From NCBI RefSeq assembly GCF_000975035.1, contig NZ_BBRA01000001.1:806001-870000 (forward strand): DNA of 64,000 nt. The letters run 5' to 3'. The notes beneath the pieces are model-generated. The model was not told the DNA's origin. It ran no database searches and saw nothing but the letters and a program-made list of their open reading frames with translations. A program made the position numbers and the translations under genes. Of the stretch, positions 1 through 62,829 are shown in pieces; the first letter of the stretch is position 1, and each line of letters begins with the position of its first letter. Origin of the DNA: Demequina flava. GTDB lineage: Bacteria; Actinomycetota; Actinomycetes; Actinomycetales; Demequinaceae.

Positions 1-32
1 ACGCACCCCGAGCATCGGCCCTCTCCCAGGCA

Positions 33-464
33 CTACTCGCAGTCGACGACCGCCTGGGCCTTGCCCAGAACCTTGGCGCCGTCGAACTCGACGGTCAGGT
101 CAACGCGCGCGGTACGGCGTTCCTCGTCGAGCGCGCCAATCTTGGCGCTGATCGCGACGACGGCCTCGCCGGGGTTCGGAACGGGAATGGGGCGCGTGAA
201 ACGCACCTGGTAATCCGACACATTGCCGGCGCCTGCCCACTCCTCAACAACAGACGCACCCACACCCATGGTGAGCATGCCGTGCGCGATGACGCCGGGA
301 AGCCCGACCTCTTCGGCGATGACGTCGTTGTAGTGAATCGGGTTGAAGTCGCCCGACGCGCCTGCGTAGCGCACGAGGGTGTCGCGGGTGATGATGGCCT
401 CGCGCTCAGCGACGACCTGCCCCACCTCGAGGCCGGCGAAGCTAGGACTCGTTGACTCGGTCAT
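33..464 (-). CDS. MaoC-family dehydratase (HadB-like hot-dog fold)
   Basis: 143 residues, matching the length of mycobacterial HadB. The hydratase motif is clear at residues 31-63: YAGASGDFNPIHYND with the catalytic Asp and His, followed by a GVIAHGMLT segment. This supports a hydratase/dehydratase acting on 3-hydroxyacyl or enoyl thioesters. It overlaps the upstream dehydratase by 4 nt (ATGA at 461-464), so the two are translationally coupled and probably form a heterodimer like HadAB. In mycobacteria the had genes follow rpmG and tRNA-Thr/Met; here the same neighbours lie upstream with a permease in between. Mycolic acid synthesis cannot be inferred; a general fatty-acid or polyketide dehydratase role is equally possible. 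Confidence 0.85.
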   Translation of the reverse strand: MTESTSPSFAGLEVGQVVAEREAIITRDTLVRYAGASGDFNPIHYNDVIAEEVGLPGVIAHGMLTMGVGASVVEEWAGAGNVSDYQVRFTRPIPVPNPGEAVVAISAKIGALDEERRTARVDLTVEFDGAKVLGKAQAVVDCE

Positions 465-907
465 GCGACCTCCCTCACAGCCAGGGTCGAGGTGACGGTG
501 GATACGGGGGCGCCGTCGACATCGGTCAGTTCCGCGCGGGTGGTCACCATGGAGATGCCCGCGCGCTGCTTGATGGAGTCGATGTGCACGGTCGTGTAGA
601 TCACGTCGCCGGCCACGAGTGGGCGCACATGCGTGAAGCGCTCCTCCCCGTGGACCACCATCGAGAAGTCGACGCCGACCTCGGGGTCCGTGACCACATG
701 GAACTCGGACTTCTGGGCGATGATCACGGCGAACGTCGTGGGCGCGACCAGGTCCTCGTAGCCTTCCGCCTGCGCAACCGCGACATCGCGGTGCGCGCCG
801 GAGTAGGCGTCGACGGCGTCGGCGAACTCGCGGATCTTCACGCGAGTCACCTCGTAGGGCTCAAAGGGGCCGTACGAGCGGCCCACTGCATCTGCGTTTA
901 CTGGCAC
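461..907 (-). CDS. MaoC N-terminal-type dehydratase (HadA/HadC-like)
   Basis: 148 residues with the MaoC_dehydrat_N / FAS1-DH pattern: a hot-dog helix region around residues 45-70 (YEDLVAPTTFAVIIAQKSE) and a VVHGEERFTHVRPLVAGDV segment. It lacks the catalytic Asp/His signature found in its downstream partner, as expected for the substrate-binding subunit of HadAB-type heterodimers. The start is GTG at 907. A TAGGCT -10 hexamer at 914-919 lies exactly 6 nt upstream and there is no Shine-Dalgarno sequence, so the mRNA is predicted to be leaderless. It heads the two-gene dehydratase operon. Confidence 0.82.
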   Translation of the reverse strand: MPVNADAVGRSYGPFEPYEVTRVKIREFADAVDAYSGAHRDVAVAQAEGYEDLVAPTTFAVIIAQKSEFHVVTDPEVGVDFSMVVHGEERFTHVRPLVAGDVIYTTVHIDSIKQRAGISMVTTRAELTDVDGAPVSTVTSTLAVREVA

Positions 908-982
908 ACCATCAGCCTAGCGAACCGGTCGCGACCACCGGCGGGCGGGGCGCGCTCCGCGGGAGGCCGGCCGTCGTTTCGT

Positions 983-1006
983 TCATTCTTGGATTTCCGA
1001 GAATGA
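983..1006. promoter_or_regulatory. Palindrome between divergent genes (operator or small hairpin)
   Basis: TCATTCTTGG and CCGAGAATGA form a 10-bp dyad (one G-T pair as RNA) around the tetranucleotide ATTT. It stands out as A+T-rich in a G+C-rich intergenic stretch between the dehydratase start (907) and the small membrane ORF (1076). It has no T-tract and is not at a gene end, so an operator is more likely than a terminator. It matches no regulator box I recognise. Confidence 0.35.
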
Positions 1007-1075
1007 GAAATGCGAGGCCAAGGCCCCTGCGCGATTGCCGTTGCGGCATACGCGTCCCTGCGGTGGACTGGGGAG

Positions 1076-1327
1076 ATGATTCCGACAGTGCTCATCATCG
1101 GCCTCATCGTGGGTATCGCACCAGCGCGGTCTCTGCGCGCGAAGGCCATAGGCGCAGCAGTCCTCGCGACCGCGTGGGCCCTGCTCATCACCTTCACGCT
1201 CGACGGCGGGCTAGCGACCGTCGGCGTCGCGTGGCTCGTCGCGGCCGTCAATGCAGCCCTGGGTATTGCCGTGGGCGCAGGCTTGTGGGCACTCATCGTC
1301 CGGGTCCGTCAGCCGGCGTCCGCCTGA
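1076..1327 (+). CDS. Small hypothetical membrane protein
   Basis: 83 residues from ATG 1076, preceded closely by GGGGAG. The product is hydrophobic, with likely membrane segments at about 2-16, 23-40 and 48-72 and a short basic C-terminus (RVRQPASA). I recognise no family. It is convergent with the purine permease and ends just before the long hairpin at 1348-1399. An in-frame upstream start at 1010 is possible but has no ribosome-binding site. Coding status is moderately supported by composition and the following terminator. Confidence 0.4.
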   Translation: MIPTVLIIGLIVGIAPARSLRAKAIGAAVLATAWALLITFTLDGGLATVGVAWLVAAVNAALGIAVGAGLWALIVRVRQPASA

Positions 1328-1347
1328 CCGGCCCCACAGACACACAC

Positions 1348-1399
1348 GGGCCGATGCTCGGGCTGGCTTCCGTACGTAAGCCAGCCCGAGCATCGGCCC
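1348..1399. terminator. Bidirectional terminator formed by an inverted pair of the 9-mer
   Basis: GGGCCGATGCTCGGGCTGGC (from 1348) and its near-perfect complement (to 1399) give a stem of about 23 bp around a 6-nt loop centred at about 1374. The arms contain the two copies of GGCCGATGC at 1349 and 1390. It sits between convergent genes: the small membrane ORF and the permease. There is no U-tract, as is usual for actinobacterial intrinsic terminators. Confidence 0.75.
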
Positions 1400-1409
1400 T
1401 AGGTCTGTT

Positions 1410-3635: not shown

Positions 3636-4922
3636 GTGACCTCAGACTTGAGCGCGGCAGAGGCTCGCCGCATCTTCCTTCACGCCCAGGACCTGGGCCG
3701 CGCAAGACCACGCAAGACACCGCGCCCCCGCGACATTGAGGCCTACCTGGAGCGTCAGGGGGTTTTGCAGCTCGACACGGTCAACGTGCTCGCCCGCGCC
3801 CACTACATGCCGCTGTACTCGCGCTTGGGGCCCTACGACACCGCCATGGCCGACCACACTCTCTGGGGGCATGAAGCAGGCCACGCCGCGGAGGCCTTCG
3901 AGCACTGGGGCCACGAGGCATCCGTGATGCCGCGCACCTTGGTGCCGCTGATGCACCACCGCATGGTCTCGCCGTCGTCGTGGCAGGCACGCACGCGAGA
4001 AAAACTGGAGGCCGAGCGGCCGGGCCTCATCGCCGCCGTCCAAGAGGCGGTCGAGTCAGAAGGTCCCGTCACCGCGGGCGCTTTGGACCACCTCGCACCG
4101 CGGGAGCGACCCAAGGGACAGTGGTGGGATGCCAGCCACGTGAAGGTGGCGCTCGAATACCTCTTCATCACCGGGCGTGTGGCCGCTTCGCGAGGGCGTC
4201 ACTTTGCACGGACCTATGACTCGACGCAACGGGCGTGGGGCCTGCCGCCATCGGACCAGGGCGATTGGGGGCAGCCTGCGCGCGAAGCGCACCAAGCGCT
4301 GTTCGATCACGCGCTCACCGCGTCCGGCATCGGCACTGTCAAGGACCTGTGCGATCACTTCCGGTTGCCGTTCCAGGCAGGCGCGCGTAGCCCCGATGTC
4401 GCGGGCGGCATGGCGTGGGCGACCTCCGCGGTCGAGCGGGGGCTCGCGCAGTGGGTGACGGTAGAGGGCTGGGAAGAACCCACCTTGCTGAGGGCCGATG
4501 CCGAGGTTCCCTCCCGCATGACCGGCGCCACCTTGCTCAGCCCCTTTGATCCGGTGTGCTGGTTCCGACCGCGCCTGAAGCGCATGTTCGGTATGGACTA
4601 CCGGATCGAGATCTACACCCCTGCCCACAAGCGCCAGTACGGGTACTACTGCCTGCCGCTGCTCATCGGCGATCAACTCGTGGGACGGTTCGATCTCAAG
4701 GCGGATCGCAAAGCAGGGACCCTCTTAGTGCAGGCAGCATGGTCGGAGCCGACCCCCGCACCCGGTGCCCGGCGAATCTCAGCCGCGACGACGGCGAATG
4801 TCGCGTCGCGGGAATTCCTCACCGTGGCGCGATGGTTAGGACTGCAGTCAGTGCGCTCGGGCCCCCGCGGCAACTTAGCTCCGTCGCTAGTACCGGCCAT
4901 CGTGAACGCCGCGCGCGACTGA
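3636..4922 (+). CDS. AlkX/YcaQ-type DNA glycosylase (winged-helix, HTH_42)
   Basis: 428 residues of the YcaQ/AlkZ (COG3214) family, which unhooks alkylated bases and interstrand crosslinks. Residues 45-47 are Gln-Leu-Asp within GVLQLDTVNVLARAHYMPLYSRLG, the QxD catalytic motif of the YcaQ (AlkX) subgroup, rather than the QxQ of AlkZ. The C-terminal half carries the family blocks LLSPFDPVCWFRPRLKRMFG and YYCLPLLIGDQLVGRFDLKADR. The start is GTG 3636; a TAGGGT -10 box at 3624-3629 lies 6 nt upstream, so the mRNA is predicted leaderless. It stands alone. A copy of the 9-mer at 4493 encodes an Ala-Asp-Ala. Confidence 0.85.
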   Translation: MTSDLSAAEARRIFLHAQDLGRARPRKTPRPRDIEAYLERQGVLQLDTVNVLARAHYMPLYSRLGPYDTAMADHTLWGHEAGHAAEAFEHWGHEASVMPRTLVPLMHHRMVSPSSWQARTREKLEAERPGLIAAVQEAVESEGPVTAGALDHLAPRERPKGQWWDASHVKVALEYLFITGRVAASRGRHFARTYDSTQRAWGLPPSDQGDWGQPAREAHQALFDHALTASGIGTVKDLCDHFRLPFQAGARSPDVAGGMAWATSAVERGLAQWVTVEGWEEPTLLRADAEVPSRMTGATLLSPFDPVCWFRPRLKRMFGMDYRIEIYTPAHKRQYGYYCLPLLIGDQLVGRFDLKADRKAGTLLVQAAWSEPTPAPGARRISAATTANVASREFLTVARWLGLQSVRSGPRGNLAPSLVPAIVNAARD

Positions 4923-6581: not shown

Positions 6582-7688
6582 GTGACTTGGTTCTACGACC
6601 CACGGGCAAGCTACGAGCACAACCTTGCGCACGGGCCCTTTGGCGAGTTCGCCGAGCGACCCCGGCCTGCGAGCCGCCCGGACGTCCAACGAATGACGCC
6701 ACCGAGCCTGACCTTCCTCGGCCAGCCCGTGCATCGGCCCTTCGGAATCCCAGCCGGCCCCCTGGTCAACGCGAGGTTCTGCGCGGCCGCCTTCAGCCAC
6801 GGCTTCGACCTCGCCGTCTACAAGACCGTCCGCACCCGCGCCCACGACGCACATCCGTTCCCGAACACGCTCGCCGTGCATGTCGACGGCGACCTGTCGC
6901 CCGCACGCGGCGCGACCCTTCTCGCCGACGACGACCTCGACAGCGCCACAAGCATCTCCAACTCATTCGGCGTCCCGTCGCGCGATCCCGATGACTGGCA
7001 GCCCGACATGGCACGCGCCGTGGCTGCGGCGAGCGACGGCCAGGCGCTCATTGGCTCGTTCCAGGGCACGCGGCCAGAGTGGCACCGGCGCGACAGTGAA
7101 GCCGCCTACATCGCGGACCACGTCACGGCTGCCCGTCTCACTGCGGCGACGGGCGCACCCATCCTGGAGATGAACCTGTCGTGCCCCAACGAGGGCACCG
7201 GCGAACTGCTGTGCTTCGACACCGCGCTCGTCACGCGCATCTGCGTAGCGGTCAAGGATGAGGTTGGCGACACCCCGCTGGTCCTCAAGCTCGCGCACTT
7301 CGCTACAGACGCGCAGCTCCATGCGTTACTGCGCGCGACCTCCGACATTGTCGAGGGCTATGCGGCGATCAACACGATTCCGGCGACGCTTGTGGACCGG
7401 ACGGGACGGCAGGCACTATCGGGGCACGGCCGCGAACGCGCGGGCGTGTGCGGGGCGAGCATTCGGTGGGCTGGCCTGGACATGGTCGTGCGGCTTGCCC
7501 GGTGGAGGGCCGATGCCGGCGCTGACTTCGCGATCGTTGGCGTCGGTGGAGTCATGGGGGCCGATGACGCGGTGCGGTACGCCACGGAGGGTGCCAATGC
7601 GGTGATGAGCGCGACCGGAGCGATGATCAATCCGGGCCTGGGGCAGGACGTGCGCGGCGTGTCGTGGCCGATTTCTCACGGCGTCTGA
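6582..7688 (+). CDS. Dihydroorotate-dehydrogenase-like flavoprotein
   Basis: 368 residues with an FMN-binding TIM barrel. Family marks are FGIPAGPLVNARF, YKTVRTRAHDAHPFPN, EMNLSCPNEGTGELL (the active-site Ser/Cys loop region) and a C-terminal IVGVGGVMGADDAVRYATEGA phosphate-binding segment. DHOD-family enzymes oxidise dihydroorotate in pyrimidine synthesis, but no pyr genes are nearby and the family also contains other oxidoreductases. GTG 6582 is chosen because TAGGGT at 6569-6574 lies 7 nt upstream (leaderless); GTG 6561 would sit against a terminator stem. Substrate uncertain. Confidence 0.75.
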   Translation: MTWFYDPRASYEHNLAHGPFGEFAERPRPASRPDVQRMTPPSLTFLGQPVHRPFGIPAGPLVNARFCAAAFSHGFDLAVYKTVRTRAHDAHPFPNTLAVHVDGDLSPARGATLLADDDLDSATSISNSFGVPSRDPDDWQPDMARAVAAASDGQALIGSFQGTRPEWHRRDSEAAYIADHVTAARLTAATGAPILEMNLSCPNEGTGELLCFDTALVTRICVAVKDEVGDTPLVLKLAHFATDAQLHALLRATSDIVEGYAAINTIPATLVDRTGRQALSGHGRERAGVCGASIRWAGLDMVVRLARWRADAGADFAIVGVGGVMGADDAVRYATEGANAVMSATGAMINPGLGQDVRGVSWPISHGV

Positions 7689-7831: not shown

Positions 7832-10081
7832 ATGACCACGATCGACCTCGGCGCCGACACCACCACGACCGCCACGCCCACGCCCTCGCCCTCGCCCCTC
7901 ACCGTCGTCAAACGCGACGGGCGAGTTCTCAACTTTCAGGCCGAGCGCATCGGCGCTGCCCTCCGCAAGGCCTTCACCGCAGCCCACGGAGACCTCGGTG
8001 CGGAGCGTGAGGCGAGCATCGGCGCTGTGACGACGCGAGTCGTCGAGGAACTGGCGGGACGCGGCTCCGTGAAAATCTACGAGATCCAGTCCGCAGTCGA
8101 GCACGAGCTTCTTGAGGCCGGCGAGTACGACGCCGCCCGCGCGTATATCGACTACCGCGTGGCTCGCGACTTCGCTCGCGCCAAGGCCACGGACCTCAAC
8201 CACACCATCTCGACGCTCCTGGACAAGGACTCGAGCGTCGTGAACGAGAACGCGAACAAGGATGCCGATGTCTTCAACACGCAGCGCGACCTCACCGCGG
8301 GGCTCGTCGGCAAAGCGATCGGCCTTCGCCTGCTGCCCGAGCACGTCGCAAACGCCCACGCCAAGGGCGACATCCACTTCCACGACCTCGACTATCAGCC
8401 GTACTCGCCCATGACGAACTGCTGCCTCATCGACGTGCCCGAGATGTTCGCGCACGGGTTCCGGATGGGCAACGCGGAGATCGAGCCACCCCGGTCCATT
8501 CAGACCGCTACGGCGCAGATCTCGCAGATCATCGCGAATGTGTCGTCGAGTCAGTACGGCGGGTGCACGGTGGACCGGATCGACGAGGTCCTGGCGCCCT
8601 ACGCGGAGCTCAACCACGACAAGCACATGGCAGAGGCCGCGCAGTGGATCGGGGACCTCGCGCGGCATGAGGACTACGCCCGCGAGCGCACGCGCAAGGA
8701 CATCGAGGACGCGATGCAGTCGCTCGAATACGAGATCAACACGCTCTTCACCTCCAACGGACAGACGCCGTTTACGTCCATCGGGTTCGGACTCGGGACC
8801 GGCTGGTACGAGCGCGAGATCCAGAAGGCGATCCTGCGAATCCGTCTTCGTGGCCTGGGCAAGGAGGGACGCACCGCGATCTTCCCCAAGCTGCTGTTCA
8901 CGCTCCGCCGCGGTGTGAACCTGGAGCCACAGGACCCCAACTACGACGTCAAGCAGTTGGCCGTCCAGTGCGCCACGGAGCGCATGTACCCGGACGTGCT
9001 GAACTACGACAAGATCACCGAGCTCACCGGCTCGTTCAAGGCCCCGATGGGCTGCCGGTCGTTCTTGCAGGGCTGGGAGGATGCGGACGGCAACAGCGTG
9101 GTCAATGGCCGCATGAACCTCGGCGTCGTCACCCTCAACCTGCCGCGCATCGCGATGGAAGCCGCCGGCTCGCTCGAGACCTTCTGGCGCCTCCTCGACG
9201 AGCGCTTGGTGACGGTCCACGATGCGCTGAACTACCGCATCGGCCGATGTAAAGAGGCGGTACCGGCGAACGCCCCCATCCTCTACGTGCACGGCGCCTT
9301 CGGGCAACGGCTCAGCGTCGACGACGATGTGGATGCACTCTTCCGCGACGGGCGCGCGACCATCTCCATGGGGTACATCGGGCTGTATGAGGTCGCAGCG
9401 GCGTTCTACGGCGGGTCGTGGGAGGACAACCCGGAAGCGAAGGATCTGACGCTCGCGGTGCTTGGGCGTCTGGCCGGCGCCGCGGCGCAGTGGAAGGCCG
9501 AGTCCGGCTACCACTTCTCCGTCTACTCCACGCCGTCGGAGTCCCTCACGGACCGGTTCTGCCGACTCGACCGCGAGCGCTTTGGCGCCGTCCCGGACAT
9601 CACGGACAAGGACTATTACACGAACTCGTTCCACTATGACGTGCGCAAGAGCCCAACCCCGTTCGAGAAGCTCGACTTCGAGGCGCCCTATCCCGAGTTC
9701 GCTTCCGGCGGCTTCATCCACTACGTCGAGTACCCCGTGCTGCGCACCAACCCCAAGGGCCTCGAAGCTGTGTGGGACTACGCCTACGACCGCGTCGGAT
9801 ACCTGGGCACCAATACCCCGATCGACCGCTGCTACGCCTGCGGGTACACCGGCGACTTTGACCCCACGGCCCGCGGCTTCGCGTGCCCGGACTGCGGCAA
9901 CGACGACCCCCGCACGTGCGATGTTGTCAAGCGCACGTGCGGGTATCTGGGCAACCCGCAGCAGCGCCCCATGGTGCACGGCCGTCACGAGGAGATCGCC
10001 GCGCGGGTGAAGCACATGCCGGGATCCGTGAGGGCCGATGCTGGGGCTGAGTTGGGTGCCGGCGACCACCCTGGGGAGTAG
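7832..10081 (+). CDS. nrdD: Anaerobic (class III) ribonucleoside-triphosphate reductase
   Basis: 749 residues from ATG 7832, which has GGAGGGG 6 nt upstream. After a Thr/Pro-rich N-terminus (about 1-25), an ATP-cone allosteric domain begins at VVKRDGRVLNFQ. The barrel contains FHDLDYQPYSPMTNCCLIDV. Near the C-terminus are zinc ligands Cys667, Cys670, Cys685 and Cys688, then KRTCGYLG with the predicted glycyl-radical Gly704. It reduces NTPs to dNTPs without oxygen, using the radical installed by NrdG encoded 2 nt downstream. The C-terminal tail carries a copy of the 9-mer (10033), encoding RADAGA. Confidence 0.96.
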   Translation: MTTIDLGADTTTTATPTPSPSPLTVVKRDGRVLNFQAERIGAALRKAFTAAHGDLGAEREASIGAVTTRVVEELAGRGSVKIYEIQSAVEHELLEAGEYDAARAYIDYRVARDFARAKATDLNHTISTLLDKDSSVVNENANKDADVFNTQRDLTAGLVGKAIGLRLLPEHVANAHAKGDIHFHDLDYQPYSPMTNCCLIDVPEMFAHGFRMGNAEIEPPRSIQTATAQISQIIANVSSSQYGGCTVDRIDEVLAPYAELNHDKHMAEAAQWIGDLARHEDYARERTRKDIEDAMQSLEYEINTLFTSNGQTPFTSIGFGLGTGWYEREIQKAILRIRLRGLGKEGRTAIFPKLLFTLRRGVNLEPQDPNYDVKQLAVQCATERMYPDVLNYDKITELTGSFKAPMGCRSFLQGWEDADGNSVVNGRMNLGVVTLNLPRIAMEAAGSLETFWRLLDERLVTVHDALNYRIGRCKEAVPANAPILYVHGAFGQRLSVDDDVDALFRDGRATISMGYIGLYEVAAAFYGGSWEDNPEAKDLTLAVLGRLAGAAAQWKAESGYHFSVYSTPSESLTDRFCRLDRERFGAVPDITDKDYYTNSFHYDVRKSPTPFEKLDFEAPYPEFASGGFIHYVEYPVLRTNPKGLEAVWDYAYDRVGYLGTNTPIDRCYACGYTGDFDPTARGFACPDCGNDDPRTCDVVKRTCGYLGNPQQRPMVHGRHEEIAARVKHMPGSVRADAGAELGAGDHPGE

Positions 10082-12196: not shown

Positions 12197-12331
12197 ATGC
12201 TCCGGGTCCAACTGCAACCTGGCGCGCATGGAAGGATAGCAAGCAAATGGCCTACAACGCGAACTGGCCTCCCGCACGCTGGGGGACCACCGCATCGGCC
12301 GGACCCACCGACCACAATTCAGGAGGACACC

Positions 12332-12863: not shown

Positions 12864-12878
12864 GTAGCATCGGCCCTA

Positions 12879-17268: not shown

Positions 17269-17324
17269 GCAAAAGACGGAGGGCCGATGCCTGGGTCACC
17301 CCGGCGCATCGACCCTCCGTTTGC
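17269..17324. terminator. Bidirectional terminator between fucO and fprA, built on the 9-mer
   Basis: ACGGAGGGCCGATGC (ending 17290) pairs with GCATCGACCCTCCGT (from 17306) with one mismatch, and the stem extends through GCAAA/TTTGC at its base. The left arm contains an exact 9-mer copy (17282); the right arm has a one-base variant. It lies between convergent stop codons. Confidence 0.75.
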
Positions 17325-18827: not shown

Positions 18828-19463
18828 TCACTCAGTTTGGGCAGCCTCGGCCTCGTCAAGCGAGCCCAATCCGGCCAGCGCGACGGTCAGCGTGAGCGTT
18901 TCCTCCGTGAGGTTCCCGCCACGCGTAGCCACCTCGTCCACGAGGTCCGCGTAGAGCGCGAACGTCGCGTCCGAGTACGTGCCCAATTCGCCGCGCAGAT
19001 ACGTCTCAAACGACGTCGCTTCGAGGGTGTCCTGCGCCGTGCGCAGCACCCGCATGCCCGCACCCAAGCACGGGAAGCGAGAGTGGAAGTCCCGCGCCCA
19101 TTCCACCTGAACACCAATCACGCGTTCCTGGGCAGCCACACGCGCCTCCGCCAAGACCGGCAACCGCGGCGCAATCTCACGGGCGTACCGCTCGGGCTCC
19201 ATGGAGGCCATCATCCGCGCGTACTTCTCGGTCAGCAGGTTCCGACCGGCAGCATCGGCCGCATCCAGGTCCGCCGCGTAGGACGTCAGCAACGGCACCG
19301 GCCACGTGAGGAACTGTGGAAGCCGCTGCCCGTGGAACGTGAGCCAGTCGTCTTGGCACGCCGCGCGACCACCCTCTGCAGGCACCTCGCCCATCTGCGT
19401 GAACTCGTGGCGCACGATTCCCTCGGCCAGGTCCAGGCGCTCGGCCAAGACGTCGCGGTCCAT
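18828..19463 (-). CDS. DUF4125 family protein
   Basis: 211 residues of unknown function. The conserved N-terminal core EGGRAACQDDWLTFHGQRL (about 31-49) and a W at 54 match DUF4125. ATG 19463 has AGGAGG 5 nt upstream, and it begins 9 nt after the stop codon of the TPR-DUF4037 gene, so the two are co-transcribed. DUF4125 and DUF4037 are recurrent partners, sometimes fused. It has no membrane segment and is probably cytoplasmic. Confidence 0.8.
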   Translation of the reverse strand: MDRDVLAERLDLAEGIVRHEFTQMGEVPAEGGRAACQDDWLTFHGQRLPQFLTWPVPLLTSYAADLDAADAAGRNLLTEKYARMMASMEPERYAREIAPRLPVLAEARVAAQERVIGVQVEWARDFHSRFPCLGAGMRVLRTAQDTLEATSFETYLRGELGTYSDATFALYADLVDEVATRGGNLTEETLTLTVALAGLGSLDEAEAAQTE

Positions 19464-23481: not shown

Positions 23482-24212
23482 GTGCGATCCTTCCCGCCGC
23501 GGCTTCGCTGACGCTCCTGAACCCTCAGGAGTGGAACGCTGAGTCGTGCGCAGAGGTCAATGCGCGACTTGAGAGCGCATCGGCCGCTCACATTGCGGAT
23601 TGGGCCGTGGCCACGTTTGGTCGCAACCTGATCGTTGCCGCGTCAATGCAGGACACGATCCTGCCCCACATGTTCGGCACCCGCCTCGAGGACGTCGACG
23701 TGCTGTTCTTGGAGACCGGCTATCACTTTGACGAGACCATCGCCACGCGCGATGAGGCGGCGCGCCGCTTCCCGATCACGATCGTGAACGCCGAGCCCGA
23801 GCTCACGATCGACGAGCAGACCGAGAAGTACGGCAAGGACCTCTTCCGGACCGACCCCAACCTGTGCTGCCAGATCCGCAAAGTGGAACCACTCAAGCGT
23901 GAGCTCGCCAAGTACGACGCGTGGGTCACCGGAGTGCGCCGTGTCGACGCGATCACGCGTTCCGAGATGCCCGTCATTTCGTGGGACGCCAAGCACGGCC
24001 TGGTGAAGATCAACCCGCTGGCCCTGTGGGACGATCCCGCCGTCGAGAACTACCAGGCTGCCAACGACCTCCCCCGCAATCCTTTGGTCGCGGACGGTTA
24101 CCCCAGCATCGGCTGTGCTCCTTGCACCCGTAAGGTCGCGCCCGGCGAGGACCCGCGCGCCGGCCGGTGGGCTGGACAGAACAAGACCGAGTGCGGCCTG
24201 CACAGTGAGTAA
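23478..24212 (+). CDS. cysH: Adenylyl-sulfate (APS) reductase
   Basis: 244 residues. The Cys130-Cys131 and Cys213-x2-Cys216 pairs bind the [4Fe-4S] cluster that marks APS (not PAPS) reductases, and the C-terminal KTECGLHSE carries catalytic Cys239. It reduces APS to sulfite. This fits the absence of an APS kinase in the operon. Its GTG start overlaps the sulfite reductase stop codon (GTGA), indicating coupled translation. A 9-mer copy at 23577 encodes Ala-Ser-Ala. Confidence 0.94.
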   Translation: MSAILPAAASLTLLNPQEWNAESCAEVNARLESASAAHIADWAVATFGRNLIVAASMQDTILPHMFGTRLEDVDVLFLETGYHFDETIATRDEAARRFPITIVNAEPELTIDEQTEKYGKDLFRTDPNLCCQIRKVEPLKRELAKYDAWVTGVRRVDAITRSEMPVISWDAKHGLVKINPLALWDDPAVENYQAANDLPRNPLVADGYPSIGCAPCTRKVAPGEDPRAGRWAGQNKTECGLHSE

Positions 24213-28221: not shown

Positions 28222-28380
28222 CCGCGTTGCCGATCCAAGCATCGGCCCGTCATCGCAGTTGATTCCGCCTCGGTAGGCAATCAGTGTCACTGGAATCGCT
28301 GCATGTGGCCCTCAGTGCCCACCGGCACGTTCGCGCGGGCTGGCGGGAATTCTGTCAGACCCTCGTCGTACGCTGTCTTC

Positions 28381-28962: not shown

Positions 28963-29136
28963 GCGCACCCGCGTCCCAGTAGTGCAGGACGCCGGTGCGT
29001 GGCACGGAAATCGGGCTCAGGTCCTCCCGGCGCGTGAGTGCGGTGAACCCGCCACCTGACTGCCGACTGGCCCCTCAATGCCCCGGCGACCACGGCATCG
29101 GCCCTTCGCTATCCAATTGGGTGACAGACTCGTCCC

Positions 29137-46550: not shown

Positions 46551-46553
46551 AAG

Positions 46554-49747: not shown

Positions 49748-51007
49748 GTGAGTGTTCAGCCCGCTACTCCCGGCCCCCTGACCGTCCGCACGGTCGAGAT
49801 CGAGGCCCCTGACGACCTGTTCGCGCTGCTGCCCGAAGGTGGCATGTCGTGGGTCCGGCGCGGCGAAGGCATGGTCGCGTGGGGAGAAGTTGCCCGCCTG
49901 GACACAGCTGGCACCCACCGCATTGATGAGGCCGATGCCTGGTGGCGCCGCATCTGCCGGCACGCACTCGTGCGCGACGACGTCCACGTTCCCGGCACGG
50001 GACTCGTGGCGTTCGGCTCGTTCTCCTTCGCTGACTCATCCGCGTCAGGGGGCGCGCTCATCGTGCCCCGCTATGTCGTCGGAGTTCGAGGGAACGATGC
50101 TTGGCTCACCGTGATGAGCGAAGACGGCTTGGGCGAAATGCCCGACCTGGCCCAAGCATCGGCCGGAAATACGCCTGCCGGGCCGATGCCGAGTGTCAGC
50201 CTCGCACCCGGCGACAAGGAATCGTGGGGTACCGCGGTGACGCAAGCCGTGGCGCGGATTGGCGCCGGCGAGCTGGACAAGGTGGTGCTCGCGCGAGCTG
50301 TCGAGGCCACCGCGGATGCGCCGATTGACGTGCGCCCGGTCCTGACCACGCTCGCGGAAGCCTACGAGACGTGCTGGACGTTCCACGTCGATGGGCTCGT
50401 GGGTGCGACGCCCGAACTTCTTGCTCGCGTGGATCACGGGCTCGTGACGTCGCGCGTGCTCGCCGGCACCATCCGGCCCACAGGTGACGAGACCGCGGAC
50501 CTGGCTCACGCCGCCGCGTTGGCGCGCTCGTCCAAGGACCTTGAAGAGCACGAGTACGCGGTGCAGTCGGTGACTCAGGTCTTGGCCGCCCACTGTGGTT
50601 CCGTCAACGTGCCCGAGGCGCCGTCGGTCCTGCACCTGCCCAACGTCATGCACCTCGCGACCGACGTAACTGGCGTGCTGAGCCACAACGCCTCCGCACT
50701 GGAACTGATCCGCGAGCTTCATCCCTCTGCCGCGGTGTGCGGCACGCCGACTTTGACCGCCGCTGGCGTCATCGACCAGCTCGAGGGCTTGGACCGCGGG
50801 CGCTACGCCGGACCCGTGGGATGGATCAATGCGGCAGGCGATGGCGAGTGGTGCATTGGACTGCGCTCGGCAGAGGTGTCCCCGGCGGATCCCACACGCC
50901 TGCGCCTCTTTGCTGGGTGTGGGATCGTCGCGGCGTCTGAGCCCGAATCGGAGTGGGCCGAGTCGGAGGCGAAACTCGAGCCGATGCGCAAGGCGCTGGG
51001 CGCGTAG
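49748..51007 (+). CDS. menF: Isochorismate synthase
   Basis: 419 residues, chorismate-binding family. The C-terminal catalytic half includes ELDKVVLARAVEA, VSRVLAGTIRPTG-like TSRVLAGTIRPTGDETADL, HAAALARSSKDLEEHEYAV and the end motif LFAGCGIVAASEPESEWAESEAKLEPM (given here in parts). It converts chorismate to isochorismate, the entry step of menaquinone synthesis. GTG 49748 lies 7 nt after TAGGCT (49735-49740), predicted leaderless. Three 9-mer copies (49930, 50156, 50181) fall in the variable N-terminal half. Confidence 0.9.
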   Translation: MSVQPATPGPLTVRTVEIEAPDDLFALLPEGGMSWVRRGEGMVAWGEVARLDTAGTHRIDEADAWWRRICRHALVRDDVHVPGTGLVAFGSFSFADSSASGGALIVPRYVVGVRGNDAWLTVMSEDGLGEMPDLAQASAGNTPAGPMPSVSLAPGDKESWGTAVTQAVARIGAGELDKVVLARAVEATADAPIDVRPVLTTLAEAYETCWTFHVDGLVGATPELLARVDHGLVTSRVLAGTIRPTGDETADLAHAAALARSSKDLEEHEYAVQSVTQVLAAHCGSVNVPEAPSVLHLPNVMHLATDVTGVLSHNASALELIRELHPSAAVCGTPTLTAAGVIDQLEGLDRGRYAGPVGWINAAGDGEWCIGLRSAEVSPADPTRLRLFAGCGIVAASEPESEWAESEAKLEPMRKALGA

Positions 51008-51877: not shown

Positions 51878-52831
51878 ATGGACACCACCTGGGCATACCG
51901 GCTGACAGCTCCCCTCGAGTTCGAACGCGTAGAGGTACCGGTGCCACAAGCCCCGAGCGCCGGCGAACTGGTCGTGGAACTCACCGCGGGCGCGGTGTGC
52001 GGTTCCGACTTGCCATTCGCGCGGGGCGCTCTGATCCCGGCAGGAGGCGCGGGGCAACCGGGCCGGCCGATGCACGAGGTCGTAGGCGTAGTGCTCGCCA
52101 GTGCACACACTGATTTTGCGCCAGGAGACAAGGTTGTGGGGTGGGCGTCGAACTGGGATGCGTTGCGCGGTGTGTTCGTGACGCATGGCTCACAAGTCGC
52201 GAAGGTCCGCATGGACACGACGGATCCACTCGCGACCGTCGCGCAGTCCGTTGCGTGCCTGATGACTGTGTTCGATCGCTTGGGTCCGCTCGCCGGACGC
52301 TCGGTGGGGATCGTGGGCGTGGGGCCATTTGGCCTGATGACCTCGGTGCTAGCGAAGCACTTTGGCGCTGGGCACATTGTCGGGGTGGACCCGCTTGAGC
52401 GTGCGGGAGACGCGGAAGGTCTGCCCTTTGACGAGTTGGTGCGCAAGAACTCGCGAATCTGGGCGGCTGAGATTGCTGACGCGGACCGACCGGACATCGT
52501 CATAGAAATGGTGGGACATCAGTCCTCGACGGTCGCAGATGCCATGAACGCGGTGGGCCAGGCGGGCACAGTGCTCGCGTTCGGTGTGCCCGACGATGAT
52601 TGGTACTCGCTGCCCATGCGAAGCTTCTTCCGCCGCAACGGCACACTCATCACGGGCGTGACCAGCGAGCACCGCGACACCCTTGAGCGTGCTCAGGACT
52701 ACCTCGTTGACAATCCGTGGTTCGCGCCGCGGATGGTGACGGACGTCATTCCGATGGACCAGGTGGGCGACGCTTTCGCCGCCGCATGCCACCCCAAGCC
52801 CGGCCAGCGCAAGATCGTTCTGTCCGTGTGA
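51878..52831 (+). CDS. Zinc-type alcohol dehydrogenase-like (MDR) oxidoreductase
   Basis: 317 residues. The GroES-like domain has AVCGSDLPFARG and MHEVVGVV, which retain the catalytic Cys, His and Glu of the zinc site, but no four-Cys structural-zinc loop is seen. GIVGVGPFGLMTSVLAKHFGA is the NAD(P)-binding Rossmann motif. The substrate is unknown. ATG 51878 follows TACGTT (51865-51870) by 7 nt and lacks a ribosome-binding site, so it is probably leaderless. A 9-mer copy (52065) encodes GRPMHE. Confidence 0.78.
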   Translation: MDTTWAYRLTAPLEFERVEVPVPQAPSAGELVVELTAGAVCGSDLPFARGALIPAGGAGQPGRPMHEVVGVVLASAHTDFAPGDKVVGWASNWDALRGVFVTHGSQVAKVRMDTTDPLATVAQSVACLMTVFDRLGPLAGRSVGIVGVGPFGLMTSVLAKHFGAGHIVGVDPLERAGDAEGLPFDELVRKNSRIWAAEIADADRPDIVIEMVGHQSSTVADAMNAVGQAGTVLAFGVPDDDWYSLPMRSFFRRNGTLITGVTSEHRDTLERAQDYLVDNPWFAPRMVTDVIPMDQVGDAFAAACHPKPGQRKIVLSV

Positions 52832-54086: not shown

Positions 54087-55751
54087 TCAGCGCAGCCGCG
54101 CCTCCACGACTTCAATACCCACTGGAGCCTTCGCGAGCGCCTTGGCCAAAGCATCGGCCGACTTCACCGCCGTATGCCCCACCCCGTAGCCCGCGCACAG
54201 GCTCGCGAGATCCGCACCGTGCGGCGTGGTGAAGACCCGCTCGACGTTCTCGGGCGGCGCCGCGGAGTGCTCGAGGCCGCCAAAAATGGTCCCTCCCCCG
54301 TCGTTCACCACCACGATGCGCAAGCGCGGACGCTGCTCGCGCGGGCCCACGAGGAGACCACCAACGTCGTGGAGGAACGTGACGTCCCCCATGAGCGCAT
54401 GCACGGGGCGACCGGCCGCGAGCGCGACACCGACCGCCGTGGCAACCGTCCCGTCAATCCCGGCCAGGCCCCGGTTGGCAAGCAACGTGGGCGCCTGCCC
54501 CACGGCCCACGCCGGCCCAATGCGGTCCAGCGCTCGGATGGAGCCCGAGGAACCAATCACGGCAACGTCGCCCGCTGACAACGCGTCGAGGAAAACCCGG
54601 CCAACCGCCCGCTTGCCCCAGGGCCGCTCGTCGGCGACCACGGCATCGGCCGCCTGCCTCCACTCACGAAGCCACGGCGAATCTCCCAGCTCAATGCGAC
54701 CGTCGTCCCGGCTCGTCCAATTCGCGGGCACGGACCGGAGGATGCGGTCGGCGTGCCGCGGGGCCTCGCGCCAGCGCGCACCGTGGCCTGCAATCATCAA
54801 CGCGGGGGCCCGGGAGATCAGCGCCTGGATGGGTCGGGACAGCGTGGGGCGGCCAATCACGATCACCTGATGCACGCGGTCCGCGAGATCCTGGCCGTCA
54901 CGGGTCGCAAGCAAATCCAAATACCGGCCGATGCAGGCGTCACCTTCGCGCGCACCTGACGTGGGTTCGGCGAGCAGTGGCCAGCCGTGAGCCTCCGCGA
55001 CCTGGCGGGCGACGTCGCCCGCACCGTCACCTGCGATGACGAGTCCGCGCTCGACGTCGGGCAGCGGAGGCGGGGTCTCGACTACGGGCGTGCCATACGA
55101 GCCTTGCGATGGAGATGGGTCCACATGGGGCGGGTCATCCCACACGCCGTTGTCAGGCCCAAGCGGGTCACGGAACTCAAGATCCAGGTGAACGGGACCA
55201 GCGGTACCGGTCATGTCATCGCGTGCCGGGTCGCCCATGGCAACGGCCACGGCGCGAGCGGCGAGGAGGGCGGCGCGGCCTGGCTCGTCCCCTGGCTCGG
55301 GCGCTGCCGAGGTCGCTTCCCAGCGCACAAAAGTGCCGAAGATGCCTTCCTGGTCCGTGGTCTGGTTCGCGCCCACGCCGCGCAGTTCACGCGGGCGGTC
55401 GGCGGTCAGCAGCAAGAGCGGGACGCCTGCGTGGTGGGCCTCCATCACCGCCGGCAAGAGATTGCCCACGGCGGTCCCGGACGTGGTGATGATTGCGACA
55501 GGTCGCGGGGTCCCGGTGGCGGCGCGGCCTCGCGCGATACCGAGTGCGAGGAACGCTGCGCTGCGCTCGTCGATGCGCACGTGAAGGTTGACACGGGGAG
55601 CCCCCAGCGGCGGATTCCCTGAGCCGGCCTCCGCGAGGGCATGCGCCAACGGGCCCGAGCGGGAGCCCGGGCACAGCACGTAGTCCTCGACGCCCAACTG
55701 CGCGAGGGTCGCGACAAGCTCGCGCGCAAAAGGCGCGGAAGGGTTACTCAT
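54087..55751 (-). CDS. menD: SEPHCHC synthase
   Basis: 554 residues, ThDP-dependent. The N-terminal VLCPGSRSGPLAHAL binds ThDP, a MGDVTFLHDVGGLL segment is the ThDP/Mg motif, and VVNDGGGTIFGGLEH is typical of MenD. It joins isochorismate and 2-oxoglutarate. ATG 55751 overlaps the menC stop codon (ATGA), so menC and menD are co-translated. Three 9-mer copies (54151, 54643, 54926) lie in the gene. Confidence 0.94.
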   Translation of the reverse strand: MSNPSAPFARELVATLAQLGVEDYVLCPGSRSGPLAHALAEAGSGNPPLGAPRVNLHVRIDERSAAFLALGIARGRAATGTPRPVAIITTSGTAVGNLLPAVMEAHHAGVPLLLLTADRPRELRGVGANQTTDQEGIFGTFVRWEATSAAPEPGDEPGRAALLAARAVAVAMGDPARDDMTGTAGPVHLDLEFRDPLGPDNGVWDDPPHVDPSPSQGSYGTPVVETPPPLPDVERGLVIAGDGAGDVARQVAEAHGWPLLAEPTSGAREGDACIGRYLDLLATRDGQDLADRVHQVIVIGRPTLSRPIQALISRAPALMIAGHGARWREAPRHADRILRSVPANWTSRDDGRIELGDSPWLREWRQAADAVVADERPWGKRAVGRVFLDALSAGDVAVIGSSGSIRALDRIGPAWAVGQAPTLLANRGLAGIDGTVATAVGVALAAGRPVHALMGDVTFLHDVGGLLVGPREQRPRLRIVVVNDGGGTIFGGLEHSAAPPENVERVFTTPHGADLASLCAGYGVGHTAVKSADALAKALAKAPVGIEVVEARLR

Positions 55752-56638
55752 ACGATCACCTCGAGTGTTCCTGGCACCATGCGGCCATGAGCCGGTAGCC
55801 ACGTGTGAGCGACAGTATCGGTGGCCAGCAGCGCGCCGGTGCCCAGTCCGCACGCAAGGGGTTCGCGTGGGAGCGCCCGTGCGAGCGCGAGCCCGGCCGC
55901 GAGGCCTACCGAAGACTCCATCGCACTGGAGACCACGACGTCTCTGTCGCCCACGCTGTCAGCGATCTCGAGCGCCCTGCGCACCCCTCCCAAAGGCTGA
56001 GCCTTGAGGATAAAGACGTCGGCAGCATCGGCCCTCAGAACGTCCTGGGCGGTACCCGGCATGCGGATGGACTCGTCGGCAGCGATGGGGACCTCGACGT
56101 TGCGGCGCAAATGGGCGAGGTCCTCGACGGATGCGACGGGTTGCTCGGCGTATTGGAGGCCGGCGCCTCCGGCAGAGCGAGCCGCGGCATCGAGGCGTGG
56201 CAGGCAACGGATGGCCTCGTCCAGATCCCAGCCGCCGTTGACGTCGACGCGGATGCGGCCCTTGGGCCCCACAGCGTCCGCGACTGCTTCGATGCGCGCG
56301 ATGTCGTGGGCCAGGTCGGAGCCGCCGCCCACCTTGACCTTCGCGGTCGTGCAGCCGCCACGGGTGGCGAAGTCCCGGGCCTCGTCTGGACCGACAAGAG
56401 GGACGATGCTGTTGGTAGCCACGCTGTCGCGTTGCGCCTGGGGCCACTCACCTCGGGCGGCCTCCATGGCGGAGCGCCACCAGCGGGTCGCGCGCTCGGC
56501 GTCGTAGTCGGGAAACGGGCTGTACTCGCCCCAACGGCGCGTGCCGTCATCGGCAATGGTGGAGATGAGAACGCCGGTGCGGCGGGTGGTCGCGCGGAAA
56601 CGCGTCGAGAGCTCGACGGAAAAGGGCCGGAACTCCAT
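55748..56638 (-). CDS. menC: o-Succinylbenzoate synthase
   Basis: 296 residues of the enolase superfamily. Catalytic lysines lie in TAKVKVGG and in FILKAQPLGG, and the metal ligands in RVDVNGGWD, YAEQPV and AADESI. It dehydrates SHCHC to o-succinylbenzoate. ATG 56638 is supported by TAGTCT (56645-56650) 6 nt upstream; GTG 56644 would abut that box. The gene is divergent from menB; both appear leaderless. Confidence 0.93.
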   Translation of the reverse strand: MEFRPFSVELSTRFRATTRRTGVLISTIADDGTRRWGEYSPFPDYDAERATRWWRSAMEAARGEWPQAQRDSVATNSIVPLVGPDEARDFATRGGCTTAKVKVGGGSDLAHDIARIEAVADAVGPKGRIRVDVNGGWDLDEAIRCLPRLDAAARSAGGAGLQYAEQPVASVEDLAHLRRNVEVPIAADESIRMPGTAQDVLRADAADVFILKAQPLGGVRRALEIADSVGDRDVVVSSAMESSVGLAAGLALARALPREPLACGLGTGALLATDTVAHTWLPAHGRMVPGTLEVIV

Positions 56639-60103: not shown

Positions 60104-61123
60104 ATGACATACGCTCGGCTGGTCGACGACGCCGCAACCGCTGTGGACGACGCCCTAAGCGGACGTGCGCGCGGAATCGCCGCACGCACGTCCGGGTCCA
60201 CGGGTGAGCCGCGCGAAGTCTTGCTGTCGGGGAAAGCCCTCAAAGCATCGGCCCTGGCCACGCTGGACCGCCTTGGCGGGCCTGCCCACTGGCTCCTCGC
60301 GGTGCCCGCTGACCGCATCGCGGGGGCGATGGTTCACGCCCGCGTGCAGGTGGCCGATGCTTCGCTCACCCGGATCGGCGACGTCCCCTTCACGCCGGAT
60401 GCGTTTTGCCGGGCGGCCGATGCCATGGAGCCCGGGCGGCGCTACGTTTCCTTGGTCCCGACTCAGGTCAGGCGGCTCCTCGCGGATCCCAGTGGCTCAC
60501 AGGCGCTCGCGAGCTTTGACGCAGTTCTTGTCGGTGGTGCCGCTCCCGGGATGGAACTGCCGGCGAACGCGATCGAGACATACGGCATGACGGAGACTGC
60601 GGGAGGGTGCGTCTACGACGGCGTGCCGCTGCCAGGCGTCCAGGTCCGCACCAACGCCGACAACCGCATCTGCATCGCCGGTCCCACGCTCGCCGACGGG
60701 TATGCCGACAGCGACAACAGCGCCTTCACCTCTGCTCAGGGGCTGCGCTGGTTTGTCACCAATGACGTGGGCTCCTGGGATGGGTCGCTCACGATCCACG
60801 GCCGCGCAGACGACGTCATCATCACCGGCGGACACAACGTGCATCCCTCAACCGTGGAACGCGCTGTGGCCGAGCTGCCCGGGGTGCGCGAGGCGGTGGC
60901 GGTAGGCGTGCCAGACCCCGAGTGGGGCGAGCGCGTCGCCATCGTCATCGACGCCCCTGCGCCCGCGCCAAGCCTGGCCCGCATGCGCGACGCCCTGGAC
61001 CTGCCTCGGCACTCGCTCCCCCGGCAAGTGGTCGTGGTGCGGTCGGTGCCGCGCACGGAGGCTGGCAAAATCGATCGCAGTGCCGCACGCGCTCTCGCAG
61101 CGGCAGCCGACGTCAAGGAGTAA
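60104..61123 (+). CDS. menE: o-Succinylbenzoate--CoA ligase
   Basis: 339 residues, AMP-forming ligase, short like other actinobacterial MenE. Motifs: ARTSGSTGEPREVLLS (AMP/P-loop), ETYGMTETAGG, and TIHGRADDVIITGGHNVHPS (hinge), with the C-terminal Lys in EAGKIDRSA. It activates o-succinylbenzoate with CoA for MenB. ATG 60104 follows TACCCT (60092-60097) by 6 nt, predicted leaderless. Three 9-mer copies (60245, 60352, 60415) crowd into the first third. Confidence 0.92.
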   Translation: MTYARLVDDAATAVDDALSGRARGIAARTSGSTGEPREVLLSGKALKASALATLDRLGGPAHWLLAVPADRIAGAMVHARVQVADASLTRIGDVPFTPDAFCRAADAMEPGRRYVSLVPTQVRRLLADPSGSQALASFDAVLVGGAAPGMELPANAIETYGMTETAGGCVYDGVPLPGVQVRTNADNRICIAGPTLADGYADSDNSAFTSAQGLRWFVTNDVGSWDGSLTIHGRADDVIITGGHNVHPSTVERAVAELPGVREAVAVGVPDPEWGERVAIVIDAPAPAPSLARMRDALDLPRHSLPRQVVVVRSVPRTEAGKIDRSAARALAAAADVKE

Positions 61124-61125
61124 GC

Positions 61126-61995
61126 ATGACCACCGCATCTGACTGGGTTGCTGGCGCGCGTCCGCGCACGCTGTGGGCCGCGATCTCCCCGGTAGCTGTC
61201 GGCACGGGCGCGGCCATTGCCGTCGATGGGTTCGCGCTGATCCCCGCACTCCTGGCGCTCGCGGTGGCGATGGCACTTCAGATCGCCTCGAACTACGCCA
61301 ACGACTACTCGGACGGCATCCGCGGAACTGACCTCGACCGCATCGGCCCTGACCGCCTTGTCGCGACCGGCCGGGCGACGCCTACGTCGGTGAAGTACGC
61401 GGCGTTCGCATCGTTTGGCGTCGCCGCGGTGGCAGGGCTCGCGCTCGTGGCGCTCACCGCGACCTGGTGGCTGATCATCGTCGGCGCCGTGTGCATCGCC
61501 GCCGCGTGGCTCTACACCGGCTCCTCGCGCCCCTACGGCTACTCCGGCTGGGGCGAGGTCAGCGTCTTCATCTTCTTTGGCCCAGTCGCCGTGCTCGGCA
61601 CCATGTACACGCAATCGGGCACCATCACCTGGTGGGCCGCCGTCGCGTCGGTGGGCGTGGGCCTGTACTCCGTGGCCCTGCTCATGGTCAACAACATCCG
61701 CGATATCGCTAGCGACACGGCTGCGGGCAAGATCACGCTGGCAGTGAAGATGGGGGAGGCCGAGTCGCGCCGCCTCTTCATGCTGGTCGTCATGCTGCCG
61801 ATCCTGTGCACGGTCGTCGTGGCGTTCGCCCAGCCGTGGGTGCTGATTGCCACCGTGGTGGCGCTGCCCAGCCTGCTGGTCGCTTTTGCCGGCCGCGTAG
61901 GCGCGGAGGTCATCAACCTGCCGCTGATGTTCAAGGCCATCTCCGGCATCGGCCTGGTCTACGGACTGCTGATGGGCGTGGGGCTGGCGATCTAG
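61126..61995 (+). CDS. menA: 1,4-Dihydroxy-2-naphthoate polyprenyltransferase
   Basis: 289 residues, UbiA family with about nine membrane helices. The two Asp-rich motifs are NYANDYSDGIRGTD (from residue 56) and NNIRDIASDTAAGK. It attaches the polyprenyl chain to dihydroxynaphthoate, giving demethylmenaquinone. ATG 61126 has AAGGAG overlapping the menE stop codon, so the two are translated from one mRNA. Confidence 0.95.
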   Translation: MTTASDWVAGARPRTLWAAISPVAVGTGAAIAVDGFALIPALLALAVAMALQIASNYANDYSDGIRGTDLDRIGPDRLVATGRATPTSVKYAAFASFGVAAVAGLALVALTATWWLIIVGAVCIAAAWLYTGSSRPYGYSGWGEVSVFIFFGPVAVLGTMYTQSGTITWWAAVASVGVGLYSVALLMVNNIRDIASDTAAGKITLAVKMGEAESRRLFMLVVMLPILCTVVVAFAQPWVLIATVVALPSLLVAFAGRVGAEVINLPLMFKAISGIGLVYGLLMGVGLAI

Positions 61996-62009
61996 CTCCG
62001 CTCCCAGTA

Positions 62010-62032
62010 GGCGTTCTGGGTCACCGAACGCC
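62010..62032. terminator. Possible terminator between menA and the DUF4229 gene
   Basis: GGCGTTC (62010-62016) and GAACGCC (62026-62032) form a perfect 7-bp stem with a 9-nt loop between convergent stop codons. Confidence 0.5.
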
Positions 62033-62076
62033 CAAAAAGTGACACGGATGTCCCACGGGGACCCACCGCCAGCGCG

Positions 62077-62346
62077 TCAGCGACTGCTCTGTGAGCCGTC
62101 CTCGCCAATCTCGGCGTCTTCCTCATCGTCGAGGTTGCGGATGCCCTTCTGGGAACGATCAATCACGCCCTCCATTTGGTACCCCGCCGCACGGCGCATC
62201 CCATCGAGGAAGAGGTACGACAGCATCCAGGCGATAATGAACGACGCGATGATCGAGATGATGTCGAACCAGCCCACAAGCGCCAGCAACAACACCACGG
62301 CGAAGAAGATGCCAGTGCGCGCAGCCCAATAGGCAAGGATTTTCAT
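62077..62346 (-). CDS. DUF4229 small membrane protein
   Basis: 89 residues beginning MKILAYWAARTGIFFAVVLL, with two membrane helices (about 10-28 and 31-50) and an acidic tail. The family is a regular neighbour of menA in actinobacteria; function unknown. ATG 62346 follows TACCCT (62354-62359, minus strand) by 7 nt, predicted leaderless. Confidence 0.82.
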   Translation of the reverse strand: MKILAYWAARTGIFFAVVLLLALVGWFDIISIIASFIIAWMLSYLFLDGMRRAAGYQMEGVIDRSQKGIRNLDDEEDAEIGEDGSQSSR

Positions 62347-62441
62347 GCCTACAAGGGTACGACGGCTCGTCGCTCCCACCGCACCGCTGTTCCGCGCGCA
62401 CCACCTACCTCGGGACCCGCTGGGCGCATTACACTGATGCG

Positions 62442-62720
62442 ATGCGTTACCTGGTGTTCGTCGGCCTTTACATCGGACTCGCGGCCTATGCCGTGACCGA
62501 TGTACTCAATCGCGGCCAGCAGTCGTACTTCGGTATGCACCGCTCCCTGTGGATCGCGATCATCATCCTCGCGCCGTATCTGGGTGCGCTGATCTGGATC
62601 GGGATGATCTGGCGCGGCCGCGGTGGCCGTCCTGCGACCGGGCCCAAGGCTCCGGACGACGACCCCGACTACCTGCGTTGGCTCCGCCAGCAGGAGCGTC
62701 GCCGCAACGACGACAAATAG
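62442..62720 (+). CDS. PLDc_N-domain small membrane protein
   Basis: 92 residues, two membrane helices (about 1-20 and 36-58), then a basic/acidic tail. WIAIIILAPYLGALIWIG matches the phospholipase-D N-terminal membrane domain found as a stand-alone protein in actinobacteria. ATG 62442 follows TACACT (62430-62435) by 6 nt, predicted leaderless. A 9-mer copy (62721) begins immediately after the stop codon. Confidence 0.78.
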   Translation: MRYLVFVGLYIGLAAYAVTDVLNRGQQSYFGMHRSLWIAIIILAPYLGALIWIGMIWRGRGGRPATGPKAPDDDPDYLRWLRQQERRRNDDK

Positions 62721-62829
62721 GGCCGATGCTCGGGTCGGGTCCCGCTCAGTGCCCGCCCGCCGCGTCGCTCCCCACGATGGAGCAGCACCCGCCACGTGAG
62801 GCCAGAGATGGCGGTCTGCGCTCCATTTG

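Follow-up and report, generated by a model that had tools for sequence, protein, structure and literature searches.

Why does a single nine-base word, GGCCGATGC, recur so frequently and in both orientations within one 64,000-nucleotide stretch of a bacterial genome? The stretch, here called the window, comes from a member of the genus Demequina (Actinomycetota) and corresponds to C3:806001-870000 of a genome of 2,546,965 bases in three contigs, all of which was searched. The closest named relative, as judged by a search with PilC, is Demequina globuliformis at 92%. An initial annotation, made from the letters of the window, had likened the word to a DNA-uptake or other genome-wide recognition signal. 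The excess of the word is real, both in the window and in the genome. Judged from its sequence context, GGCCGATGC together with a partly conserved flank very probably serves a naturally competent Demequina as its DNA uptake sequence, and the best reading is of one that would have evolved independently in Actinomycetota.

Excess of GGCCGATGC over chance and codon use

The window contains 44 exact copies of GGCCGATGC, 21 on the plus strand and 23 on the minus strand, spanning 12-20 to 62721-62729, and the word ranks first among all 9-mers there. The high copy number claimed initially is thus correct, while the exact figure (41, divided 22 and 19 between the orientations) is not. About two copies had been expected by chance, and 100 dinucleotide shuffles of the window agree, giving a mean of 2.03 and a maximum of 6. 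The genome as a whole has 1261 copies, a density of 495 per Mb, compared with 73 for the reversed word as a control. In a sample of 464 kb, made up of the window and twenty 20-kb stretches, there are 259 copies where a third-order Markov model predicts 18. The word is not palindromic, and it lies in both orientations without strand bias, as had been proposed, with 626 copies on the plus strand of the genome and 635 on the minus strand. A bias toward either replication strand is also absent from the sample, where the plus and minus counts are 63 and 64 where the GC skew is negative, and 67 and 65 where it is positive.

The synonymous word GGCCGACGC, which codon preference would favor, had not been noticed in similar numbers. 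It occurs once in the window, and 89 times in the whole genome against 1261 for GGCCGATGC. The excess extends well beyond the window and is not shared by the synonym, so the idea of a genome-wide signal stands.

We have examined the genes of the sample under a codon-preserving null, in which synonymous codons are shuffled within genes over 200 runs. The excess persists in this codon-aware comparison, with 181 copies of GGCCGATGC against 23.5 (maximum 38; z 32). The preferred synonym GGCCGACGC is depleted in the same genes, with 14 copies where 37.1 are expected. Overall use of aspartate codons favors GAC (7076) over GAT (2096), yet within Ala-Asp-Ala with GCC as the first codon we find GAT 125 times and GAC 37 times. 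The word imposes GAT against the general preference, as the initial annotation had suggested. Codon use and protein sequence fail to account for the excess of GGCCGATGC.

Among the 27 words that differ from GGCCGATGC by one base, the strongest excesses are 35 against 14.9, 31 against 13.4 and 22 against 9.7. Each of these three is a transition, one at position 1, one at 3 and one at 9, as would be expected from decaying copies, and the other 24 have z values between -4.1 and 2.9. Between genes there are 77 exact copies, compared with 0-4 for each one-base neighbor.

Placement, inverted pairs and flanking bases

Intergenic DNA makes up 10.4% of the sample yet carries 77 of the 259 sites, the remaining 182 being not intergenic. 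The density is 1.59 per kb between genes and 0.44 per kb within them, a ratio of 3.64. Seventy-two of the intergenic sites are flanked by genes on both sides. Convergent spacers hold 24 of these in 6,591 bp, divergent spacers 20 in 15,379 bp and codirectional spacers 28 in 22,501 bp; the highest density of GGCCGATGC is found between convergent genes.

Neighboring sites no more than 60 bp apart form 15 pairs in this genome, of which ten are plus followed by minus, two are minus followed by plus, and three lie on the same strand. Uniform placing predicts 8.6 close pairs of all kinds. The terminator-like inverted pair that had been noticed at 1348-1399 is borne out on folding. The stretch 1335-1420, which covers the pair at 1349-1398, forms a hairpin of -57.9 kcal/mol (z -10.8) whose stem is 22 bp long. 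A near-pair had been seen at 17269-17324; here an exact arm faces one that carries a single mismatch, and the stretch 17255-17340 folds at -46.6 kcal/mol (z -4.5). Inverted pairs between convergent genes probably double as transcription terminators.

The bases around the word are also conserved, as the initial annotation had supposed, and chiefly on the downstream side. With position 0 as the first G of GGCCGATGC, T(+9) is present in 55%, G(+12) in 66% and G(+13) in 66% of 256 sites. The 75 intergenic sites additionally have G(-1) in 83% and A(-2) in 53%. The partly conserved consensus is approximately A-G before GGCCGATGC and T-S-G-G-G-T-C-R-C-C after it, and the base preference dies out about ten bases from the core.

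The exact sites in the window, together with the two pairs, are listed below. Simple gene calls were used to divide intergenic sites from those in genes, and they give the nine intergenic copies originally reported, out of 44.

12..20, minus, GGCCGATGC site, intergenic
1348..1399, no strand, inverted site pair between convergent genes, terminator-like stem-loop (arms 1349-1357 plus, 1390-1398 minus)
1349..1357, plus, GGCCGATGC site, intergenic
1390..1398, minus, GGCCGATGC site, intergenic
4493..4501, plus, GGCCGATGC site, in gene
6731..6739, minus, GGCCGATGC site, in gene
7508..7516, plus, GGCCGATGC site, in gene
9237..9245, minus, GGCCGATGC site, in gene
10033..10041, plus, GGCCGATGC site, in gene
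12292..12300, minus, GGCCGATGC site, intergenic
12867..12875, minus, GGCCGATGC site, intergenic
17269..17324, no strand, near inverted pair, stem-loop (17282-17290 exact, a single mismatch in the opposite arm)
17282..17290, plus, GGCCGATGC site, intergenic
19252..19260, minus, GGCCGATGC site, in gene
19623..19631, plus, GGCCGATGC site, in gene
19683..19691, plus, GGCCGATGC site, in gene
20484..20492, plus, GGCCGATGC site, in gene
21070..21078, minus, GGCCGATGC site, in gene
21178..21186, minus, GGCCGATGC site, in gene
23577..23585, minus, GGCCGATGC site, in gene
25532..25540, plus, GGCCGATGC site, in gene
25913..25921, plus, GGCCGATGC site, in gene
27460..27468, minus, GGCCGATGC site, in gene
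28239..28247, minus, GGCCGATGC site, intergenic
29095..29103, minus, GGCCGATGC site, intergenic
34243..34251, plus, GGCCGATGC site, in gene
34326..34334, minus, GGCCGATGC site, in gene
34418..34426, plus, GGCCGATGC site, in gene
35725..35733, plus, GGCCGATGC site, in gene
36297..36305, minus, GGCCGATGC site, in gene
39690..39698, minus, GGCCGATGC site, in gene
40310..40318, plus, GGCCGATGC site, in gene
49930..49938, plus, GGCCGATGC site, in gene
50156..50164, minus, GGCCGATGC site, in gene
50181..50189, plus, GGCCGATGC site, in gene
52065..52073, plus, GGCCGATGC site, in gene
54151..54159, minus, GGCCGATGC site, in gene
54643..54651, minus, GGCCGATGC site, in gene
54926..54934, plus, GGCCGATGC site, in gene
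56025..56033, minus, GGCCGATGC site, in gene
60245..60253, minus, GGCCGATGC site, in gene
60352..60360, plus, GGCCGATGC site, in gene
60415..60423, plus, GGCCGATGC site, in gene
61340..61348, minus, GGCCGATGC site, in gene
61946..61954, minus, GGCCGATGC site, in gene
62721..62729, plus, GGCCGATGC site, intergenic

The interval 40319-49929, beginning inside nuoG, is free of exact sites over 9.6 kb.

Dialects in Demequina and counts in other genomes

Comparison of related genomes, which the initial annotation had advised, reveals three dialects of the word among sister species. We surveyed 44 Demequina genomes (labeled G001 and so on), calling a dialect at 650 copies or more. The number of GGCCGATGC copies ranges from 68 to 2018. 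Dialect 1 is GGCCGATGC itself, found in 17 genomes with 659-2018 copies. Dialect 2 is GCCCGACGC, in two genomes, with 1206 copies in G037 and 1101 in G026, and dialect 3 is GGACGATGC, in 16 genomes with 929-1864 copies. The second and third words were discovered in low-count species, GCCCGACGC from G037 and GGACGATGC from G023, G028 and G020. Bases 1, 4, 5, 6, 8 and 9 are identical in all three. For the most part a genome that is rich in one of the words is poor in the others. Dialect-1 genomes have only 31-275 copies of each of the other two words, and dialect-3 genomes still have 134-664 copies of GGCCGATGC, with the highest number in G017. The word is weak or absent in the nine genomes that fall under the cut, although G032 (584 versus 54) clearly belongs to dialect 1 all the same, and the counts in G036 (274 versus 67) lean toward dialect 2.

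The codon-aware tests covered eight of the 44 genomes (our own, G037, G004, G043, G023, G028, G034 and G020). The dialect word occurs in genes 53 times against 13.9 expected in G037, where the overlapping word CCGACGCTG gives 51 against 7.1, and 27 against 4.1 in G023, 38 against 8.1 in G028, and 37 against 6.8 in G020. In all four genomes the dialect word or one overlapping it tops the genic words. It is also the commonest intergenic word in G037, G023 and G028, though not in G020, and the ratio of intergenic to genic density is 1.99, 6.17 and 2.83 in the same three genomes. G(+12) and G(+13) lie downstream of the word in five of the six genomes inspected singly (our own, G037, G023, G028 and G026, but not G020). 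Next come Y, C, R and C, which are less firmly conserved, and position +9 and the upstream bases differ between genomes.

No such excess was observed in the codon-aware test of G004 and G043, and no word stood out strongly when samples of G004, G034 and G043 were searched. By count, GGCCGACGC is raised in G034 (685), G033 (497) and G043 (741). We have not called it a fourth dialect because the codon-aware test is weak, with 16 copies against 10.2 in G034 (plus 6 intergenic) and 42 against 24.3 in G043 (plus 3).

We placed the dialects on a midpoint-rooted tree of 38 genomes built from five proteins and shown without support values. Dialect 2 appears in two distant lineages. Dialect 3 comprises a large clade and a pair whose neighbors are G026, of dialect 2, and G004, which has no dialect.

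Beyond the genus, we counted GGCCGATGC in an order-level set of 396 genomes, comprising 34 Demequina, one from another genus of the family and 361 from other families. Just one of the 361 exceeds 180 copies per Mb. This is G351, with 1681 copies in 4.2 Mb, or about 400 per Mb. We considered a transferred uptake word in G351 and rejected it, since 140 kb of its sequence has 39 genic copies against 11.1 expected, an intergenic density lower than the genic and no flank. We conclude that the excess is an unexplained coding bias of that one species. G073, of the same genus as G351, has 227 copies in 2.7 Mb, where the reversed control has 22. G044, from another genus of the Demequina family, has 127 against 27, and no strong word was found in 40 kb of it.

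Competence genes and explanations of the word

A check of competence and pilus genes had been recommended, and the machinery is present. In the genome, comEA and comEC overlap, and a type IVa pilus cluster encodes PilB, PilT, PilC, PilM and pilins. Two T2SSF genes lie outside this cluster and, from their size, may be Tad. ComEC is found in 43 of the 44 Demequina genomes, the sole miss being a genome that is 85% complete, and is therefore uninformative as a co-varying marker. ComEC matches in G010, G022 and G037 are split over two frames, possibly reflecting broken genes or assembly errors.

It is the combination of density, strand symmetry, codon-aware excess, enrichment between genes and especially convergent ones, inverted pairs in this genome, dialects, and comEA-comEC with type IVa pili that makes an uptake sequence the best supported explanation, in agreement with the initial annotation. 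A receptor on the path of the pilus would bind the word preferentially, the pilus would retract, and ComEA and ComEC would pass the DNA inward. Recombination would then exchange the resident copy, and word-bearing sequences would build up through the bias of uptake (molecular drive). A shift in the preference of the receptor could lead to replacement of the word in a genome, generating dialects that favor exchange within a lineage.

The known systems are compared here as they are described in excerpts of the cited papers. The DNA uptake sequences (DUS) of Neisseriaceae differ from species to species as dialects that share an invariant core, and their inverted pairs are tied to terminators (Frye et al. 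2013, PMC3630211). They resemble the Demequina word in being short, non-palindromic and present in many copies, with inverted terminator pairs and dialects around an invariant core. They differ in the word, in the unrelated host phylum and in the electropositive pilin ComP, no counterpart of which was found among the pilins examined here. The uptake signal sequences (USS) of Pasteurellaceae, in the Hin and Apl dialects, have a 9-base core and a less conserved flank, at 31-913 per Mb over 150 genomes, and their predicted receptor is PpdA/ComN (PMC12616744, PMC7811141). The Demequina word shares the 9-base core with a weaker flank and the dialects, and its 495 per Mb lies within that range; its flank is G-rich rather than A+T-rich, and the word and phylum are different. 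The Demequina word would work like a DUS or USS yet belongs to neither family by word or host. Micrococcus luteus, also in Actinomycetota, has a type IV filament besides comEA and comEC and is naturally competent via Flp/Tad pili; the excerpt of the review describing this (PMC6370729) mentions no uptake sequence for it, and the genome studied here has type IVa pilus genes besides the possible Tad. In the portions consulted, strong uptake preference was placed in two Gram-negative families in 2020 (PMC7811141), and a paper of 2023 states that none have been reported for mycobacteria (PMC10526031). Among the papers listed from an open-licence library, which lacks most subscription papers, we recognized none that describes uptake sequences from Demequina or from Actinomycetota more widely.

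Several observations weigh against an uptake sequence. Samples of 100-160 kb from relatives show no excess of inverted pairs. The close pairs number one plus-minus in G037, two plus-minus in G023, one plus-minus with two on the same strand in G020, and none plus-minus with five on the same strand in G028. Intergenic enrichment was not found in the G020 sample (ratio 1.10). G017 bears two words, with 664 copies of GGCCGATGC and 1294 of its own dialect word, and site positions turn over, one of five alignable sites in the pilus region being kept in D. globuliformis, a dialect-1 species. The count in G351 shows that numbers alone can mislead. ComEA and ComEC score above the Pfam cut-offs and below the whole-protein cut-offs of NCBIfam, and ComEC and pilins also occur in motif-poor species, so that machinery and motif do not co-vary. 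Finally, all the receptor candidates that we weighed (a lone minor pilin, the 632-, 227- and 524-residue proteins of the pilus cluster, and PilA) are acidic in this genome, whereas published DNA-binding pilins are electropositive (in the part of PMC12616744 consulted). An electropositive ComP-like pilin was not found among the pilins examined, and elsewhere in Demequina a few PilA, those of G011, G012 and G037, are slightly basic.

The alternatives named in the initial annotation fit less well, given the unbiased strands, the non-palindromic word and a similarity that reaches no further than about ten partly conserved bases beyond the core. The word could be recognized by a DNA methyltransferase, or by a nucleoid or chromosome-organizing protein, and kept dense for that role. 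The same has been proposed for HIP1 of cyanobacteria, a very frequent genome-wide word linked to methyltransferases (PMC4390886, in excerpt). However, HIP1 is the palindromic octamer GCGATCGC and GGCCGATGC is not palindromic, the conserved positions reach some ten bases downstream, the excess peaks in intergenic DNA and at convergent ends, and sister species use three dialects. We regard this explanation as improbable. Signals of the Chi or KOPS type, read by a translocating enzyme in recombination or segregation, are short words with hundreds to about a thousand copies per genome, which matches the numbers here. Such words are oriented along replication, whereas the strands are balanced both genome-wide and in regions of either GC skew, and a role of this kind seems very unlikely. 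A short mobile element or terminator cassette might have spread, as the strong hairpin from the pair at 1349-1398 could suggest. Most sites are not intergenic, the base preference fades about ten bases from the core, and the word itself is replaced genome-wide in relatives, and we give this even less credence. Codon or composition bias without function, as the copies in G351 appear to be (genes only, no flank), is the least credible of all given the excess under codon shuffling and the peak of density between genes.

Returning to the uptake sequence, a broader proposal is somewhat favored, namely that sequence-specific uptake of 'self' DNA arose for the third time here, in a phylum of Gram-positive bacteria. 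A single environmental genus would then hold at least three dialects acting as recombination barriers, with GCCCGACGC apparently arising twice, and, as the examined pilins of this genome are acidic, the receptor would be of a novel kind. If true, this third independent case would mean that the trait requires neither an outer membrane nor a mucosal lifestyle, and it would provide a natural replicate for distinguishing molecular drive from selection for self-recognition. Three dialects spread over the tree of one genus would allow receptor and word to be compared. There would also be a practical handle, as adding the word to constructs may render Demequina transformable.

The lone minor pilin (C3:1215462-1215866) has a WC...C end and lies away from the pilus cluster, with metE on one side and the frame of a 2726-residue DUF11-repeat protein on the other. 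Comparable lone pilins occur in at least 30 of the 44 Demequina genomes. Its structure is predicted with a mean pLDDT of 88, and the structural matches are pilins, as are those from a sequence search. It is similar to pilins of Thermus, including a competence pilin; ComP is absent from the VIA match list for the structure, and Foldseek alone gave no match at E <= 0.001. The 524-residue protein of the pilus cluster has no Pfam match. The presence or absence of the 632-residue protein is independent of dialect. The pilus cluster itself exists in two versions, with and without this pilin-like protein and its neighbors, unlinked to dialect.

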